DNA from: Capsaspora owczarzaki ATCC 30864
Taxonomy: Eukaryota; Opisthokonta; Filasterea
NCBI RefSeq assembly: GCF_000151315.2
Contig: NW_011887294.1
Coordinates: 1,880,460-1,944,459, forward strand
Length of the DNA stretch: 64,000 nt
Direction: 5' to 3'
The position numbers were made by a program, and so were the translations under genes. This document shows, one piece after another, positions 6,449 to 62,181 of the stretch; position 1 is the stretch's first letter; every line of letters begins with the position of its first letter. The notes under the pieces were generated by a model, which was not told the origin of the DNA, did no database searches, and saw only the letters and a list, made by a program, of their open reading frames with translations.

Positions 6449-7638
6449 CAAGGGGAGAAACGATGGTCAGGACATTGAAAAAAGTACAAGCATGTTTTCA
6501 TCATCCGTTTCAAAGGCGGGTGCATCACACCCATCGATCATCACGCACTTATTCTGAACGCCAAGCCAAAACCCAACGAGCAGGACGTATGTGACGAACG
6601 CCATCACTGAGTGAAGAAAAGAGCAGAAGCAACGAAACCCAAATCAACACAAAAGTGGTCAGTTTATGCATTCATGCGCTGCTTCCCTTCAGAAACAAAG
6701 GCAACCTTGCTAATGCAATCACGTCGATCAAAAACGACGTACCAGGAATGTACAGATCGGGCGCGTTCACGTCGTCACGGGGAGGCAAGAACGAAATGGA
6801 GTTGGTTGACGGATCCGTGCCATGCTTGCGGCTCCAGTCCTGTGCGCAATCCCAACGCACCCAAATCAAGCAACGTGTAGGTTAGCAAGTCGTTGCACCA
6901 TGCATACCATTTTTTCGTCGTCAGCAGCTGTTGCGTTGTGATTGAGAGGGTCGACGACGTGTCCCCAAACCTTACTCGGTTCAAGAAGGGGAAGAGCACC
7001 AGCCGCAGCTTGCGCGCAACGTACGACGTGTTGACAGCAAAGTAGTACTTGAGCTTATTGATGGTCACAAACCGGCTCAACTATCACGAAGCGATGGTAA
7101 AGAAGCCAAGTGAGTGCAACGCGACGACCGCCACATCCAAACTGCCCCCCTGCCACATCCCCCACTCTCGCTCTCCCAGCCCAACTCTCTCCTCTCGCTC
7201 TCTATGATAGCCGAGTCATCCAGACCAGACCCCCTTCGCCCCCCCCCCTTTCTCTCTCTCTCTCCCTCGTTTCAACAGCCCGTTCTGTTCTGTTCCGTTG
7301 GTGCAGAGCCAGCTTTCCCCTCTGTTTCCCCCCCCCCTCGCGTTACTCACGTTCTTGCCGACATAGTTCTCTGCGACGCTGAATCCGTGCTGGAGCGCGA
7401 GGTTGGTTGCCGGGTTGGCCATGAACGCCTGGCCCTGCGACATCATTGTGCTGAACAGTTGGTTTCCATTGCCAAAGTCCATCTGCTGCTGTCCCTGCGC
7501 GTACTGCTGCTGCTGCTGCCCAGCCATCATCATTGGATTGCTTGGGTTTGGATTGTTGTTGTTGTTGGCAAAGAACGGCGAGAACTGTGGCAGGCCGTTC
7601 ATCGGCTGCGTTGGCTGCTGGTAAGGATTGAACGCCAT
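5756..7638 (-). CDS. YIF1: YIF1-family ER-Golgi transport membrane protein
   Basis: Seven exons (7638-7351, 7080-6976, 6839-6743, 6606-6549, 6349-6194, 6068-5975, 5887-5756) encode 309 aa. YIF1 pairs with YIP1 in the early secretory pathway and acts in ER-to-Golgi vesicle traffic. The N-terminal about 95 residues are cytosolic, rich in Asn, Gln and Pro (MAFNPYQQP start). The conserved core follows: LKYYFAVNTSYVARKL, DVNAPDLYIP before the first membrane segment, then five hydrophobic segments including CGYKYVG. All exon phases close. The fourth intron carries a long CT microsatellite directly before its acceptor. The gene shares a 108-bp divergent promoter with TIMMDC1. Confidence 0.93.
6355..6447. 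repeat. (AG)46 microsatellite inside YIF1 intron 4
   Basis: About 93 bp of uninterrupted AG on the + strand, which is CT on the transcribed YIF1 RNA. It ends five bases from the acceptor at 6350, so it occupies the position of the polypyrimidine tract. Confidence 0.97.
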
Positions 7639-39402: not shown

Positions 39403-42393
39403 TCAACTTTGCTGACCAAAGAAGAGCGCAAATACATCAAATGCCAAAATCGCGGCGGCTGAAAACAAAAAGTTTGGAGCGAAAATCTTCCATGCCATGA
39501 GATGCCGACGGTGCATCATTGCCGTCACCAGAACGATGATGAGGTGCAGGTGATGGATTGTGTGGGTCTGCAACAGCAATCGCAACGGCGGCTCGGCCAC
39601 GGTCGTGCTTCGGAAGGATGCGAACGCCTTCGGAAGGGCCACAGCACCCAGAGCGGAGACTGCCATTCCTGCAAATGCTTCGAGGAAGATCATGGTTCCC
39701 GAGCGCACCATATCAGCGTCATCAAAGCCTACAAACGGCGCAGTCCATCGCAGGGTGCTAAAGGTTTTCTGATGCCCAATCGAGAAGAAGAGAGTCCAAC
39801 CACCGAGCCAAAGCAGAACTGGAAGCGTCCACGAATGCGCCACGGTGTTGTTGATCGCAGCAGAGGAAGCGGGATAACCGGGAACAGCGCTCGAGCTCAC
39901 GACGGAGGTTGGAGGTCGTGGTGCACTGGGAGGATGCAACGCACGAACAGCAGCGCCCAAACAGAAAATGGAGAGGCCACAGTATAGCACGGCAATCGCA
40001 AAATACCGTCCGGCCCAGAGACTGCAGCAAATGTAAATGCCGCTCAGGATGTACTTCGAATGTACTTGACGAGCGAAACGCAGCACCAGTAGACCAGCCA
40101 TCAGCCCACCGTACAGCAGTCGAATCGCTGCGTTGACCCACCACAGACTGCCCGCAGCAACTCCATCATTGTTGCGTTCTCCTTGCTGAAGTCCTGCCAC
40201 CTGGCTATTGTGTTGCTGGATATCAGTCTCGACTCCCGCCCAGAGCAAAAGGCCACACAAAACAGCGCAAAACAGCATCGATCGATTGCGCCTTGCCCAA
40301 TCGCGCGTTTTGCAAGCGTACAGCAGCCACAGCAGGCATGGAACTCCAAAGGTCAAGGTAAATGCGTAATCGTACACAAATGTGCCAGGTTGGACTTGCT
40401 GCAGACTCGCGCACTGCGGCGAGGATTGCTCTTCTCGACAAACCAAGCATGTCTCCAGGCATAGACGGAGTAAAACCAGGCCGGCCACGGCCCAGGCAAT
40501 TGGGCGCAACGGCTTGAACCCGCGCATCGTCATCGAGTGAGAGATGCACTGGCCCAGTGCTAGCAGCACGAGTAGCGCGAATGCGAAGGGAAAGGTGAAG
40601 CTCTCGTTGACGACGAAGCTATTCGAAGTCGTTCCGAATAAAAGAATTGCAGTCAACACGAAAGCGGGCAAATCGTGAAGGCGAACGGGCGCGAGCACAA
40701 ACACAACCGCTAGCAGCGGAAGCGCAGAAACAACGGCGAGCGCAATGCCCAGCTGCATGCTGTTTGTATCAAACCGTGCCCAGGTCTCGCGGCACAACTC
40801 CTGGACTGTTTGTAGATAGACATAGTACGGGTGCGTCCGGACATCCACCCAGTGTGGAAGCTGTTGCTGGGACCTGGTCCAGACAGAGCGATGGGCGTGC
40901 TCGAGTTGCTTGCGAATGGCAGCAACCGTGCTGGGCGACAAGTCGCTCGAGACTGATGCGTACGTGAGCATGTACCGGTGGACTTGTACTGCGTTCAGTG
41001 TCAGCCACCAATCTCGCGTCTCTAGATTTGCGGGGAGCAATTCTGGGATGGCGGCCCCGAGATTGCCAAACGGAATTGGGATGCCCAGCAGGAGAGACAA
41101 TGTTGGCACCAGATCAATTTGGCGCACAGTCGTCACGTCAGAGGCCAAACCCTCTGATGCGAGCTGTGGTGGCGCCCAGCCGCGCGTCGAGTACACAAAC
41201 AAGGCTGCGTCCGTTTCGTCCAAACTGTCCCCGCCGTGATCGCCTTCACGCGTCATGCCGTGGTCTCCGCAAACAACGAGCAGCGTGTCCTTGAAGCGTG
41301 GATTGTGGTCGATTGCGGCAATCGCTTCGCGGATGACGCCGTTCATTTCATGCAGCTTGGCGTTGATGGCGGGCACGTACGGTCCAAAGGTGTGGCCCGC
41401 GTGATCGACACCGAGAAAGTGGGCCACAATCGCTCGATAGTTTTCGCTGTTGTCACCATCATGAGCATCTTGGGTCTGGTAGTTGCGCTGTTGGAGCAGG
41501 GGAAGCAGGATTTGTTCGACACCGTGATCGACCGTGTGCAGATCGTGCACGTTGAACGATGGAAACGGGTGTGCCTGCCGAAATGAGCGAGGGAACAGGT
41601 TCATCCATGTGTCGTCTCCGAGGAAGAGTAGTCCGTTTCGAGCCGGCGTCGACGTCGGACCAGTGCGAGCTCGGCTGGACTTGTCGCTTTCGGCGAGCTG
41701 GTCAATCCAGTTATCCTCGCCAATGCTGCCGCTGGCAAAATTCGATCCCGCGTCCACAAACGTCGGAAGACTGCCCGTGGTTAGTCCCTTGAGGCGCTGC
41801 AGCGTCGTTGTGGGCGGATCTGCGCGAAACCGAAACAGACGCGCGCGATTCGGATGTTCAGCGAGCTTGTCGCGAATCGCAGTCAGATGGCCCGTGTACG
41901 GCGCCTGCGGGTCGCACGGCGGAAAACGCGCGTGAGGAATATTACTGGTCTGTGCATCATCACTGTGCGATGGGGCAGTCGGCTCGCACGGTGCGGCAAA
42001 GTCGTACCGCAACGCGTCAATCACAATCAGAATGAGCGCTGGATGGTCCTGCTCCTGCCGCTGCTGCTGCTGCGACGACGCTCCATCGCCATCCAGCCAT
42101 CCTCGTGTGCTTGGATCGTTCTGCTTGGGCAGGCTTGTTGCTTTGTCGGATGCTAGGCGATCGTCCAACGCGCCAATCAGTCGCTCGCTCAGCTGGTCGT
42201 CATCACCAGCACCACCTGTCTGACGCGCGGCGAACGCACTTCGGAGCTGTGCAAAATCATCGCTGCTACTGCGATTGGGAACTTCGATTCTGGCGAGTAG
42301 AAACCCGCGGGCAAATAACGCAATGGCAGCAGCGTGCACAAGCAGTAGGATGGCCGTCGCGAGCGAGGGCGACCATCTCTGCAATCTGTGCAT
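39403..42393 (-). CDS. PIGO: GPI ethanolamine phosphate transferase 3 (PIG-O)
   Basis: An intronless gene of 996 codons from ATG 42393. PIG-O adds phosphoethanolamine to the third mannose of GPI precursors in the ER lumen, forming the bridge to protein. The luminal alkaline-phosphatase-like domain (about residues 90-470) has LILIVIDALRYDF, a Thr nucleophile region PPTTTLQRLKGLTTGSLPTF, DDTWMNLFP, HDLHTVDHGV, FLGVDHAGHTFGP and VVCGDHGMTREGDHGG. These carry the metal ligands. One N-terminal signal anchor and about ten C-terminal membrane helices follow. DDTWMxLFP and the TTTxQRLK context separate it from PIG-N and PIG-G only moderately, but overall order fits PIG-O best. Confidence 0.93.
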   Translation of the reverse strand: MHRLQRWSPSLATAILLLVHAAAIALFARGFLLARIEVPNRSSSDDFAQLRSAFAARQTGGAGDDDQLSERLIGALDDRLASDKATSLPKQNDPSTRGWLDGDGASSQQQQRQEQDHPALILIVIDALRYDFAAPCEPTAPSHSDDAQTSNIPHARFPPCDPQAPYTGHLTAIRDKLAEHPNRARLFRFRADPPTTTLQRLKGLTTGSLPTFVDAGSNFASGSIGEDNWIDQLAESDKSSRARTGPTSTPARNGLLFLGDDTWMNLFPRSFRQAHPFPSFNVHDLHTVDHGVEQILLPLLQQRNYQTQDAHDGDNSENYRAIVAHFLGVDHAGHTFGPYVPAINAKLHEMNGVIREAIAAIDHNPRFKDTLLVVCGDHGMTREGDHGGDSLDETDAALFVYSTRGWAPPQLASEGLASDVTTVRQIDLVPTLSLLLGIPIPFGNLGAAIPELLPANLETRDWWLTLNAVQVHRYMLTYASVSSDLSPSTVAAIRKQLEHAHRSVWTRSQQQLPHWVDVRTHPYYVYLQTVQELCRETWARFDTNSMQLGIALAVVSALPLLAVVFVLAPVRLHDLPAFVLTAILLFGTTSNSFVVNESFTFPFAFALLVLLALGQCISHSMTMRGFKPLRPIAWAVAGLVLLRLCLETCLVCREEQSSPQCASLQQVQPGTFVYDYAFTLTFGVPCLLWLLYACKTRDWARRNRSMLFCAVLCGLLLWAGVETDIQQHNSQVAGLQQGERNNDGVAAGSLWWVNAAIRLLYGGLMAGLLVLRFARQVHSKYILSGIYICCSLWAGRYFAIAVLYCGLSIFCLGAAVRALHPPSAPRPPTSVVSSSAVPGYPASSAAINNTVAHSWTLPVLLWLGGWTLFFSIGHQKTFSTLRWTAPFVGFDDADMVRSGTMIFLEAFAGMAVSALGAVALPKAFASFRSTTVAEPPLRLLLQTHTIHHLHLIIVLVTAMMHRRHLMAWKIFAPNFLFSAAAILAFDVFALFFGQQS

Positions 42394-42592
42394 TCGCAGA
42401 CAGACAGCCAAGAGTTACCGCGAAACGACTGGACAGAGTTTAGTTGAAGCATTGCACCAAGTCACTGAACAACTTGAAGCATCCAATCGCAAATTGCAGA
42501 ACTTGGATGCTTCTTCTCAGATTCCAGAGTCGTGCTCGGTTTTCTAGTTCTCTTTCAATGTATTGGAAACAACAGCGCATAGATCTGAATCC
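42394..42592. other. Spacer with 11-bp hairpin, PIG-O / LRR gene
   Basis: About 200 bp after the LRR gene stop and before the PIG-O start (both minus strand). A perfect inverted repeat GAAGCATCCAA (42476-42486) and TTGGATGCTTC (42503-42513) encloses a 16-base loop. On the + strand the same stretch is open and reads as a short coiled-coil (SLVEALHQVTEQLEASNRKL) to a stop at 42547. Confidence 0.6.
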
Positions 42593-44340
42593 CTAATCTT
42601 GTCGTTCGATATACCCGACAGAGAGCGACGCAAGTCGCACAAAACTGTAATACTGACCGAGTTCAACTTCAACCTCCCAACCCTCGCGCATTTGGCGGAT
42701 GACAGGATGGTCTGTTGGCGAAATTGTCACCAGCTGAATGTTCGAACCGACGACAGGCGCTTCTGCAGCCCATTTGTATCGAACAGCACCTAGCTCGTCT
42801 CGAACAATCAGATCGAAACGGCCCGATTTGGCTTCGGACTGTTCACGAAGGACTTGAATCGCTTTCACTCGGATGGAATTTCCATTGCTGCTTCGAGGCA
42901 TTGTAAGTTTCAGGAAAGCGATCTGATTGTTCCTAGCCCACGCTTGGTGAATGTGCTGCACGCCTTGCAAGTACTCCGCTTCGTGCATAACGAGCTCGGC
43001 AACCTCGGCTGGTAGTGCAGGGAGAAGTGCGGGCTGATTCTCCTTCTCGTGTCGGCCTGTCAGCAGGTGAAACACGCTCTGCCAGTCTTCAGAGGTTGCC
43101 AATCGTGGAAGCAAGGAGAATGCAAGCGGGTTTATCTGGTCCTGGATGCTGTGCAATGAACAAGCAAAAGGTAAAGGAACCATCAGGAGGACCGTTCCAT
43201 TGAGTATTGGTTCGAGGAACATGGACGAAGCATCAATGGCTCTCATTGGCAAGAACAAGCAACCTACTCAAGCTTAGTCAGAATGCCGTTGACTTTGCGT
43301 GCCTCACCAAGCGCTTGAATGCCAACTTGGCCAATGCAGTTGTTCTCTAGACTGGCGTTCAAAGTGTTAGCAGGTTGATAACGTAGCAAGGTCTGAACGA
43401 TGCTGGTTCAATGTCCCAGATGAGCAAGGCACCCAAGCACTTACGTCAGGTCAGTCAGCGTCTTGTTGACCTTGAGTGCTTCAGCGAGTGCCAGAGCGCC
43501 AATGTCACCAATCCGATTCACACTCAGACTGCCCATCCCCTCCATCAGTGAGCATTCGGAATTTTTATGAATCCCTCACATGCATCAGTAAACGTGAGAG
43601 GACTTACTAGAGCAAAATCAGGTTCGTGTTCACTTTGAGAGCCTCAGCGATCGCCTGCGCTCCAGCATCGCCAATTTGATTGTGGTACAGACTGTCCGCA
43701 CAACCTTCATCAGTGAGCACGCTGAATACCTTCTGCTAAAGTCACCCACTCACATCCATCAGTACAAAGTGAGATGACCTACATGAGCCACCTCAGGTTC
43801 GTGTTCACTTTGAATGTCTCAGCAATCGCCCGCGCTCCAGCATCGCTAATCTGATTCCAGCTCAGACTGCCCGTCCCTCTCCATCAGTGAGCACTCTCAC
43901 TGTCATCTCCTGCAGTCACCACTCACATGCATCAGTTCAAACGAGACTCACGCAACCTCGACCACCGTCTTGTTCACTTTGAGTGTCTCAGCAATCGCGC
44001 GCGCTCCAACGTCGCCAATCTGATTCTCACGCACGCTGTCCAAATCGCCTCCATCAGTGAGCCGCTCTTGCTGTCTCTACTTGATCGCCCACTTCCATGC
44101 GTCAGTGAAATTGAGATGACTTACTCGAGGTGCGTCACTGTCGTGTTCACTTTGAGCGCTTCAGCAACCGCTTGTGCTCCATCGTTGCCAATCTTCTTCC
44201 CATCCCACCTGTCTCTCCATTTTCGTCAACACAAACGCGCGGTCACACTGTTTCCAACCTTACAACTCGGCTTCCCCTTACCAGATCCATCCATTTGCGT
44301 TCTTGACGATATCATGCAGCTCGCGCTGGCTCTCAGACAT
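42593..44340 (-). CDS. Leucine-rich-repeat protein of single-repeat exons (NLRC3-like LRRs)
   Basis: Eight exons encode 372 aa. Exon 1 (44340-44282) gives MSESQRELHDIVKNANGWI. Six exons of exactly 84 nt follow, each coding one 28-residue ribonuclease-inhibitor-type repeat with consensus NxIGDxGAxAIAExLKVN, and every junction is phase 2. The last exon (43148-42593) encodes a 185-residue C-terminal region. It has an F-box-like LPALPAEVAELVMHEAEYL and a beta-rich stretch (RFDLIVRDELGAVRYKW, VTISPTDHPVIRQMREGWEVEVELG). No NACHT, CARD or kinase domain is present. LRRs of this class bind protein partners; the partner and role are unknown. All phases close to one frame. Divergent repeats at the 3' end (CIGQVGIQALGEARKVNG) suggest older units there. 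Confidence 0.88.
43260..44230 (-). repeat. Six tandem exon-plus-intron LRR units, about 163-177 bp each
   Basis: The repeat unit is the whole exon and its intron, not the exon alone. Introns share CATCAGTGAGC near one end and GAGATGACTTAC-like donors, with CACTCACATGCATCAGT in the middle. The conserved AAT codon position (Asn of NxIG) recurs at about 43333, 43510, 43673, 43848, 44017 and 44190, giving spacings of 177, 163, 175, 169 and 173 bp. Confidence 0.88.
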
Positions 44341-44950
44341 ACTCTGATAAGTCAGCATTTTCAACAATCAAACAAAGACTGACTCGATGCTCCATTTCAT
44401 CTCTCTACCCTGACACACGCAGGTCTATGAGCCAGCCATTCTGATGGCTGTTCCTCCTTGAGGAAGTTTGGAATATCAGGATAATTTTCAGTGCAAATTT
44501 TGTTGATTGTAGAAAGGGTAGTGTGCATTCCCACCGATCAGACCTATTCAAGTCATAGTATTCTTCGACAACATTTTGGAGTTATCTTAGAAAATAGGAC
44601 TGCACAAGAAACCATAAAACAAACAAAACAGAAAACGTTCAAAAAGGACTGTCTCCCGAATGCCGGAACAATCCTCCTGATTTTGCGCCTCGTCTCTTTC
44701 CAGAGTCGTACTCGGCATTTCATGTTCATCGTACGCGGGGAGATTGAAGTAGAACGTTCACTTGGAGTTGAAGCGGTTTTTGCTCAGCTCTGAGCTTTGC
44801 CGTGGCAATCCACTTCTGAATTCTCGGATGTTTGTGCTGCTTTGTCTTTCGTTGCTTGCCATCTGATGACTAGATCTACGTTATTCCTCAATCCATTTGT
44901 AATCCTTTCATTCAGTCTTGCATTTTCACTTTGAAGCCAAATCGAAATCA
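44341..44950. promoter_or_regulatory. Divergent region, LRR gene / GMF
   Basis: 610 bp, AT-rich. The + strand open frame at 44491-44793 (about 100 codons) has no recognisable features. An 18-bp direct repeat (44698-44715) matches 42522-42539 beyond the other end of the LRR gene with one mismatch. No core promoter motif was identified. Confidence 0.4.
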
Positions 44951-61237: not shown

Positions 61238-62181
61238 NNNNNNNNNNNNNNNNNNNNNNNNNNNNNNNNNNNNNNNNNNNNNNNNNNNNNNNNNNNNNNN
61301 NNNNNNNNNNNNNNNNNNNNNNNNNNNNNNNNNNNNNNNNNNNNNNNNNNNNNNNNNNNNNNNNNNNNNNNNNNNNNNNNNNNNNNNNNNNNNNNNNNNN
61401 NNNNNNNNNNNNNNNNNNNNNNNNNNNNNNNNNNNNNNNNNNNNNNNNNNNNNNNNNNNNNNNNNNNNNNNNNNNNNNNNNNNNNNNNNNNNNNNNNNNN
61501 NNNNNNNNNNNNNNNNNNNNNNNNNNNNNNNNNNNNNNNNNNNNNNNNNNNNNNNNNNNNNNNNNNNNNNNNNNNNNNNNNNNNNNNNNNNNNNNNNNNN
61601 NNNNNNNNNNNNNNNNNNNNNNNNNNNNNNNNNNNNNNNNNNNNNNNNNNNNNNNNNNNNNNNNNNNNNNNNNNNNNNNNNNNNNNNNNNNNNNNNNNNN
61701 NNNNNNNNNNNNNNNNNNNNNNNNNNNNNNNNNNNNNNNNNNNNNNNNNNNNNNNNNNNNNNNNNNNNNNNNNNNNNNNNNNNNNNNNNNNNNNNNNNNN
61801 NNNNNNNNNNNNNNNNNNNNNNNNNNNNNNNNNNNNNNNNNNNNNNNNNNNNNNNNNNNNNNNNNNNNNNNNNNNNNNNNNNNNNNNNNNNNNNNNNNNN
61901 NNNNNNNNNNNNNNNNNNNNNNNNNNNNNNNNNNNNNNNNNNNNNNNNNNNNNNNNNNNNNNNNNNNNNNNNNNNNNNNNNNNNNNNNNNNNNNNNNNNN
62001 NNNNNNNNNNNNNNNNNNNNNNNNNNNNNNNNNNNNNNNNNNNNNNNNNNNNNNNNNNNNNNNNNNNNNNNNNNNNNNNNNNNNNNNNNNNNNNNNNNNN
62101 NNNNNNNNNNNNNNNNNNNNNNNNNNNNNNNNNNNNNNNNNNNNNNNNNNNNNNNNNNNNNNNNNNNNNNNNNNNNNNNNN
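61238..62181. other. Assembly gap (944 N)
   Basis: Unknown bases, 222 bp after the exportin-1 stop. The gap hides the 5' part of the next + strand gene. Its true length may differ from 944. Confidence 1.

Follow-up and report, generated by a model that had tools for sequence, protein, structure and literature searches.

The window, i.e., the whole 64-kb stretch of Capsaspora DNA analyzed here, contains an eight-exon gene on the minus strand (44358-42593), predicted from the sequence alone and laid out in Table 1. Each of its six middle exons (6/6) is 84 nt long and encodes one 28-residue leucine-rich repeat (LRR). AG/GT borders flank all six, and all seven introns (7/7) are GT-AG and lie in phase 2, including those at the end of exon 1 and at the start of the 556-nt last exon. 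This agrees with the first-pass annotation, which had described six 84-nt exons with one 28-residue LRR each and phase-2 junctions throughout; the unit spacing, given there as 163-177, was found to be 173, 169, 175, 163 and 177. The introns measure 73, 89, 85, 91, 79, 93 and 119 nt. The spliced reading frame is open, with 372 residues counted from the ATG at 44340, which had originally been taken as the start. A MLxYQxM start lying six codons upstream of this ATG is common to the relatives, however, and because of this conservation the start codon of the window gene is probably 44358 rather than 44340.

The predicted repeats are ribonuclease-inhibitor-like LRRs, as judged from the match of the window protein to the LRR_6 profile (PF13516; E 1.2e-28, 97.3 bits vs a gathering score of 23.4) and to ribonuclease inhibitor in the PDB (E 1.1e-30). 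A domain search of the window protein detected no NACHT, ROC, COR or kinase domain, and by eye neither a signal peptide nor a membrane span was seen; the proteins of this family are probably intracellular. The downstream neighbour, an ORF at window positions 39403-42411 on the minus strand, encodes a long multi-pass protein which, by eye, we take to resemble a GPI ethanolamine phosphate transferase. A run of N at window positions 61238-62181, either a gap or a withheld stretch, accounts for the low GC there.

Table 1. Exons and selected intron of the LRR gene in the window, in gene order, with comparison to the relative L015.
Feature	Position in window	Strand	Remarks
Exon 1, constant N-terminal exon, MLTYQSMSESQRELHD...	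44282..44358	-	ends in phase 2
LRR exon 1, 84 nt	44125..44208	-	
LRR exon 2, 84 nt	43952..44035	-	
LRR exon 3, 84 nt	43783..43866	-	exon half of fused unit; resembles L015 unit 3 exon
Intron after LRR exon 3	43692..43782	-	intron half of fused unit; resembles L015 unit 4 intron
LRR exon 4, 84 nt	43608..43691	-	vs L015 unit 5: exon 97%, intron 98%
LRR exon 5, 84 nt	43445..43528	-	vs L015 unit 6: exon 80%, intron 95%
LRR exon 6, 84 nt, last repeat	43268..43351	-	98% to L015 unit 7
Last exon (556 nt), encoding the conserved ~184-residue C-terminal domain	42593..43148	-	

A six-frame scan of the 64-kb window that imposed no splice condition found exactly six LRR-like 27-mers; all of them (6/6) are bordered by AG and GT in the register of an 84-nt exon, which argues that this register does not arise by chance. 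Further 84-nt phase-2 LRR exons, for which a genome search had been suggested from the outset, occur in the relatives: among 265 distinct LRR-like 27-mers collected from loci L009-L050 (window excluded, again with no splice condition), 254 were in the exact 84-nt AG/GT register. The other 11 had AG plus GC (2), lacked AG (5), lacked GT (3) or lacked both (1). The arrays comprise 3 to 12 recognised units. Intron identity within arrays averaged 67% (322 pairs, taken from 20 loci plus the window), vs 56% for shuffled introns with their splice sites kept (maximum 66% of 300), indicating that each exon is duplicated along with its intron, in line with what the first-pass annotation had proposed for the window gene. 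Between arrays, random intron pairs were 68% identical, i.e., the introns of different genes are as alike as those within one gene.

In order to place the gene within its family, we searched the 27.46 Mb of the genome (29 contigs). A 96-nt homology arm published for the C. owczarzaki coWts gene (PMC10959527) has a single location in this genome, with 96/96 bases identical. The window gene used as a DNA query yielded 108 matches, and the C-terminal domain yielded 127, which reduce to 119 places after removal of eight entries that were either weak or second fragments. A four-repeat protein query produced 1374 candidates, 150 of which were scored, and at least 203 matches. The LRR_6 profile gave seven weak matches on the genome, this model being too short for unit counting. 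A pattern for the N-terminal exon motif occurred 80 times genome-wide, vs 0 for the reversed pattern. Copies of this motif also lie at contig ends (C5:1601, C8:108, C9:19499, C14:8882, C18:2605, C19:6288 and C26:8289), and the two ends of C3 (C3:10165-10788 and C3:2509775-2510212) bear 98% identical arrays in opposite orientation.

The arrays are followed by different C-terminal modules, assigned here by distance and strand and not by gene models. Within 7 kb downstream of the 80 N-terminal exon motifs we found the C-terminal domain of the window gene in 52 cases, a match to the kinase query in 11, COR in one and none of these in 16. Similarly, 98 repeat clusters built from 147 typed rows, with a tail sought within 4.5 kb, were followed by the C-terminal domain (58), a kinase (28), COR (2) or none (10) among the matches listed. 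Downstream of the L039 array lies a kinase of Pfam family PK_Tyr_Ser-Thr, whose nearest PDB relatives are BRI1, FERONIA and IRAK4, and an array on contig C19 is followed by COR-A, COR-B and a kinase. Arrays L036-L038, L046 and L048 were likewise observed to precede IRAK/RLK-like kinases, and one has COR plus kinase.

No credible match was obtained for the C-terminal domain itself in Pfam (12 members searched, each listed family being matched by 1/12), in the PDB (best E 0.51 with a profile and 0.13 with a single sequence) or in NCBIfam (best 0.13). The genome holds 15 COR-B places and four NACHT places; by eye, and among the matches listed, none of the latter (0/4) comes closer than 10 kb to an array or to a C-terminal-domain place. 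The best identity between units of kinase-type arrays and those of other arrays was 90.5% (49 x 222 comparisons), and recent unit exchange between the two types is therefore not supported.

Units gained, lost and exchanged in frame, which had been anticipated from the exon plan of the window gene, have left traces both in that gene and in near-identical relatives. The window gene has six units, whereas five of its seven closest relatives (L011-L015) have seven; the other two have five recognised units, with an insertion in L009 and fused repeats in L010. The exon of window unit 3 is 97% identical to that of L015 unit 3 and 86% to that of unit 4, while the intron that follows it is 93% identical to L015 intron 4 and 73% to intron 3. 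In the alignment with L015, the switch from unit 3 to unit 4 falls at the exon-intron border, the pattern expected after a single unequal crossover in unit register. Window exon 5 is locally diverged from L015 unit 6 and is followed by a near-identical intron; a donor for it was not found among the 283 units compared.

Several of these relatives showed further irregularities. The insertion in L009 (6964-7710, gene orientation) comprises several hundred bases inside the array. The first exons of L010 (~7049-7175) are rearranged, with an LRR stretch of more than 84 nt that resembles two fused repeats, and intron 1 of L012 is lengthened by a long TG dinucleotide run. Broken or rearranged units are present in some arrays of the family. 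Runs of N occur in two array ends of relatives as well as in the window, i.e., the available sequence is incomplete.

Other close sets of paralogs differ in unit number in various ways. L034 and L035 are inverted copies ~19 kb apart, in which 8/8 shared exons and introns are 100% identical; nevertheless, L034 has eight recognised units vs 12 in L035, which contains one 80-nt broken unit in addition. The extra L035 block opens with a unit that matches the one after the block at 98% in the exon and 96% in the intron. The kinase-type genes L039 and L040 are 86-95% alike from just upstream of the start codon. Their common tract of ~1 kb, in which a 2-base gap is the only difference, ends inside unit 7; beyond it the arrays continue differently, with eight vs 11 units, and over the 2.5 kb compared the flanks are unlike on both sides. 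Near-copies also occur inside L021, where some units are 98% alike in the exon and others 97% in the intron. Unit number is kept in L032/L033, L041/L042 and L036/L037/L038, while the difference between L043 and L044 is a single unit, damaged instead of absent. At ~1859-1978 of L043 (gene orientation), ~60-100 bases are unlike L044 (35% and 83% in two 60-base steps); this block sits within copies that are otherwise 95-100% identical and costs one recognisable repeat.

Across seven close sets, picked for closeness and not at random, unit number thus differs in three, is the same in three and is affected by a damaged unit in one. Recombination among eight close paralogs is supported by their 192 informative sites, for which the observed compatibility clustering was reached by 0/1000 permutations at each of four window sizes.

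We next considered which residues vary. Among 244 distinct unit exons, entropy was 3.61, 3.63 and 3.63 bits at repeat positions 2, 3 and 26 and 2.62 bits at position 25, and did not exceed 2.07 bits at the other 23 positions; junction residue 28, which is split by the phase-2 intron, had 3.53 bits (238 junctions). In a ribonuclease-inhibitor fold, positions 25, 26, 28, 2 and 3 would point outward from the beta-strand of the concave face (xxLxLxxN).

Substitution rates were determined on nearest-neighbour unit pairs sharing at least 85, 90, 93 or 95% identity (129, 72, 51 and 40 pairs, respectively). At positions 2, 3, 25 and 26, which had first been picked from the same data, the nonsynonymous rate divided by the synonymous rate pooled over all positions was 2.13, 2.85, 3.82 and 3.48 at the four cut-offs, vs 0.40, 0.59, 0.73 and 0.87 at the remaining positions. 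Pairs of nearest neighbours are not independent; the bootstrap, which resampled locus pairs, gave lower bounds of 1.8-2.7, and 0/2000 draws came down to 1 at any cut-off. For the window clade, with positions chosen from other loci, the ratio to pooled synonymous sites was 2.41, vs 0.52 for the rest (40 pairs; p 4e-7 in a test that treats pairs as independent). Fast change at positions 2, 3, 25 and 26 is firmly established.

A measure that draws its silent changes from the same codons gave ratios of 1.31, 2.13, 3.29 and 4.34 at positions 2, 3, 25 and 26 (85, 90, 93 and 95% identity); the silent changes behind these values number 47.8, 10.2, 3.5 and 1.5, i.e., the value of 4.34 rests on 1.5. The other positions gave 0.43-0.84 by this measure. 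A separate analysis of positions 2, 3 and 26 alone gave 1.13 at 85% and 2.35 at 93% identity, and in the 93% pairs intron divergence was 0.048 vs 0.105 for the nonsynonymous sites at these three positions. Family-wide, diversifying selection at positions 2, 3, 25 and 26 is supported by these comparisons.

In the window clade the same-codon ratio was 0.98 (synonymous 14.2 of 87, nonsynonymous 62.8 of 393), and two or three bases are substituted in 22/49 of the changed codons. Codons changed at a single base comprised 24 replacements vs three silent changes where 4.5 to 1 is expected, in a small sample. The density of silent changes was 0.163 at codons 2, 3, 25 and 26 vs 0.054 elsewhere, an approximately threefold excess that hints at block import or at a local hotspot. 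Since silent changes are also raised, selection is not separable in this clade from segment import, and the import of segments from other units would explain the window-clade data equally well.

Such import is central to an alternative that we regard as possible although doubtful, i.e., neutral concerted evolution, in which similar tandem units recombine and unconstrained exposed residues are imported in blocks, the proteins being scaffolds or decaying duplicates that play no part in recognition. Units and introns that are on average 67-73% alike and arrays that are in some cases broken would be consistent with this alternative, but splice borders are intact in 254/265 units. Likewise, the window-clade ratio of 0.98 is that of sites without constraint, and the threefold density of silent changes (0.163 vs 0.054) points the same way, whereas family-wide the same-codon ratios of 1.31-4.34 exceed 1, those against pooled synonymous sites (2.1-3.8) never came down to 1 in 2000 bootstraps, and the other positions are constrained (0.43-0.84).

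It is very unlikely that the differences in unit number are largely assembly artefacts, or that they arise from a diploid genome whose two haplotypes were assembled next to each other. The Capsaspora genome has been described as diploid (PMC10959527), there are runs of N inside arrays of relatives, and the inverted pair L034/L035, ~19 kb apart with shared units 100% identical, is what such a reading would point to; were these two loci alleles, the variation between them would still be real. The window gene and L015 are separated by scattered substitutions along their whole length, and the missing window unit is therefore not a second reading of L015. A one-unit change, moreover, would be shorter than ordinary reads. 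Equally improbable is a somatic or splicing-made repertoire, in which units recombine within the lifetime of the cell line or 84-nt exons are dropped alternatively: the exons are interchangeable in frame, and such exons are alternatively spliced in human NLRP3 and in brown-algal ROCO genes (PMC6642158; PMC11378527), but all changes seen here are differences between assembled loci.

With moderate confidence, we favor the interpretation that these genes form a large Capsaspora LRR recognition family, diversified by heritable unit exchange together with diversifying selection, whose tails signal. Each gene would begin with the constant N-terminal exon, continue with serial 84-nt phase-2 exons of one repeat each and close with a C-terminal module, which may be the undescribed domain, a kinase of the IRAK/RLK-like sort or COR together with a kinase. 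The differing length and content of the arrays would be explained by crossovers and by copying, and because such changes occur in unit register the reading frame would be kept. The phase-2 intron lies inside the hypervariable strand and splits codon 28, so that a swap would remix the residues of a single strand. The concave face may then bind varied ligands, most likely non-self in nature (microbes, viruses or other cells), while the C-terminal module would signal. Diversification would be heritable, fed by unit exchange and diversifying selection, and not somatic, with non-self recognition as the most likely cause of the diversity. The genetics of the unit array are well supported by the comparisons above; a recognition or immune role of the window gene is what we infer from them.

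A bolder version of this interpretation, which we consider unlikely, would see in Capsaspora an intracellular recognition system that diversifies in the germline; repeat exons of a single kind, shared among the genes, would feed at least three output modules (the undescribed domain, IRAK/RLK-like kinases and ROCO-type kinases), and the intron in the binding strand would let each swap remix contacts. Under this version the 84-nt phase-2 exon would be homologous to the repeat exon of animal NOD/NLRC genes, and modular LRR immunity would predate animals.

Comparable arrays have been published for Tetrahymena and brown algae, and the Capsaspora array is not the first of its kind. The genetics of the first-pass reading (units gained, lost or exchanged in frame) stand. 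Tetrahymena carries tens of thousands of 90-bp phase-2 LRR exons, with more than 1,000 LRR genes in most species and a retrotransposon (REP-type) linked to the units; ectopic recombination and unequal crossing over have been proposed, and young members are concentrated near centromeres and telomeres (PMC6564038). Its authors were aware of no comparable uniformity of exons and introns in any other eukaryote and suggested a possible single origin for the LRR genes with exons of exactly 90 bp; the text of that paper does not contain the term 'positive selection' (PMC6564038). Tetrahymena resembles Capsaspora in being unicellular and in having fixed-length one-repeat exons with phase-2 introns (PMC6564038), but the exons are 90 bp there and 84 bp in Capsaspora (6/6 in the window, 254/265 in relatives), and this length rules out the Tetrahymena type in the strict sense.

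Brown-algal ROCO genes possess 72-bp phase-2 LRR exons and are reported to undergo shuffling and diversifying selection (PMC11378527). They share with Capsaspora the plan of one LRR per exon in phase 2, and the array on C19 has COR and kinase as well. Their architecture is LRR-ROC-COR, however, whereas the window gene lacks ROC and COR, and the difference between 72- and 84-bp exons rules out this type, too, in the strict sense.

Most human NOD and NLRC genes encode one 28-residue LRR per exon, and across most NLRs the exon border falls inside the beta-sheet (PMC6642158). The window gene shares with human NOD/NLRC genes, as far as these are described in that source, the ribonuclease-inhibitor-type 28-residue LRR, one per exon, and the border inside the beta-sheet. 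Human NOD/NLRC proteins have a central NACHT, which the window protein lacks, and the use reported for their LRR exons is alternative splicing (PMC6642158). Identity as an NLR was ruled out for the window gene, there being no NACHT in the protein or within 10 kb of the listed arrays. Plant receptor-like kinases and animal IRAK kinases provide the nearest PDB kin (BRI1, FERONIA and IRAK4) of the L039 kinase; LRR receptor kinases have the kinase in the same gene, whereas the window gene has neither a kinase nor a visible membrane span. Lamprey variable lymphocyte receptors are made by somatic assembly of LRR cassettes. In fungal NLRs, repeats are reportedly shuffled and exposed-surface residues are under diversifying selection (PMC10197012), and in zebrafish NLR-B30.2 genes the B30.2 domain is reported to undergo both gene conversion and selection (PMC4852459). 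Among the matches listed in the openly licensed literature, we found no description of these Capsaspora LRR genes.

What is new here is a lineage near animals in which unit turnover can be traced directly, change can be followed residue by residue and the signalling tails are exchangeable. Among unicellular organisms, Capsaspora is closely related to animals. On the interpretation that we favor, it would join Tetrahymena and brown algae as a lineage using the one-repeat exon trick, and LRR genes with uniform exons and introns are now present in a eukaryote other than Tetrahymena (cf. PMC6564038). Capsaspora can moreover be cultured and gene-edited (PMC10959527). If it does possess a large family of modular, rapidly changing LRR genes that includes IRAK/RLK-like kinases, ideas on how innate recognition arose in animals would become directly testable.
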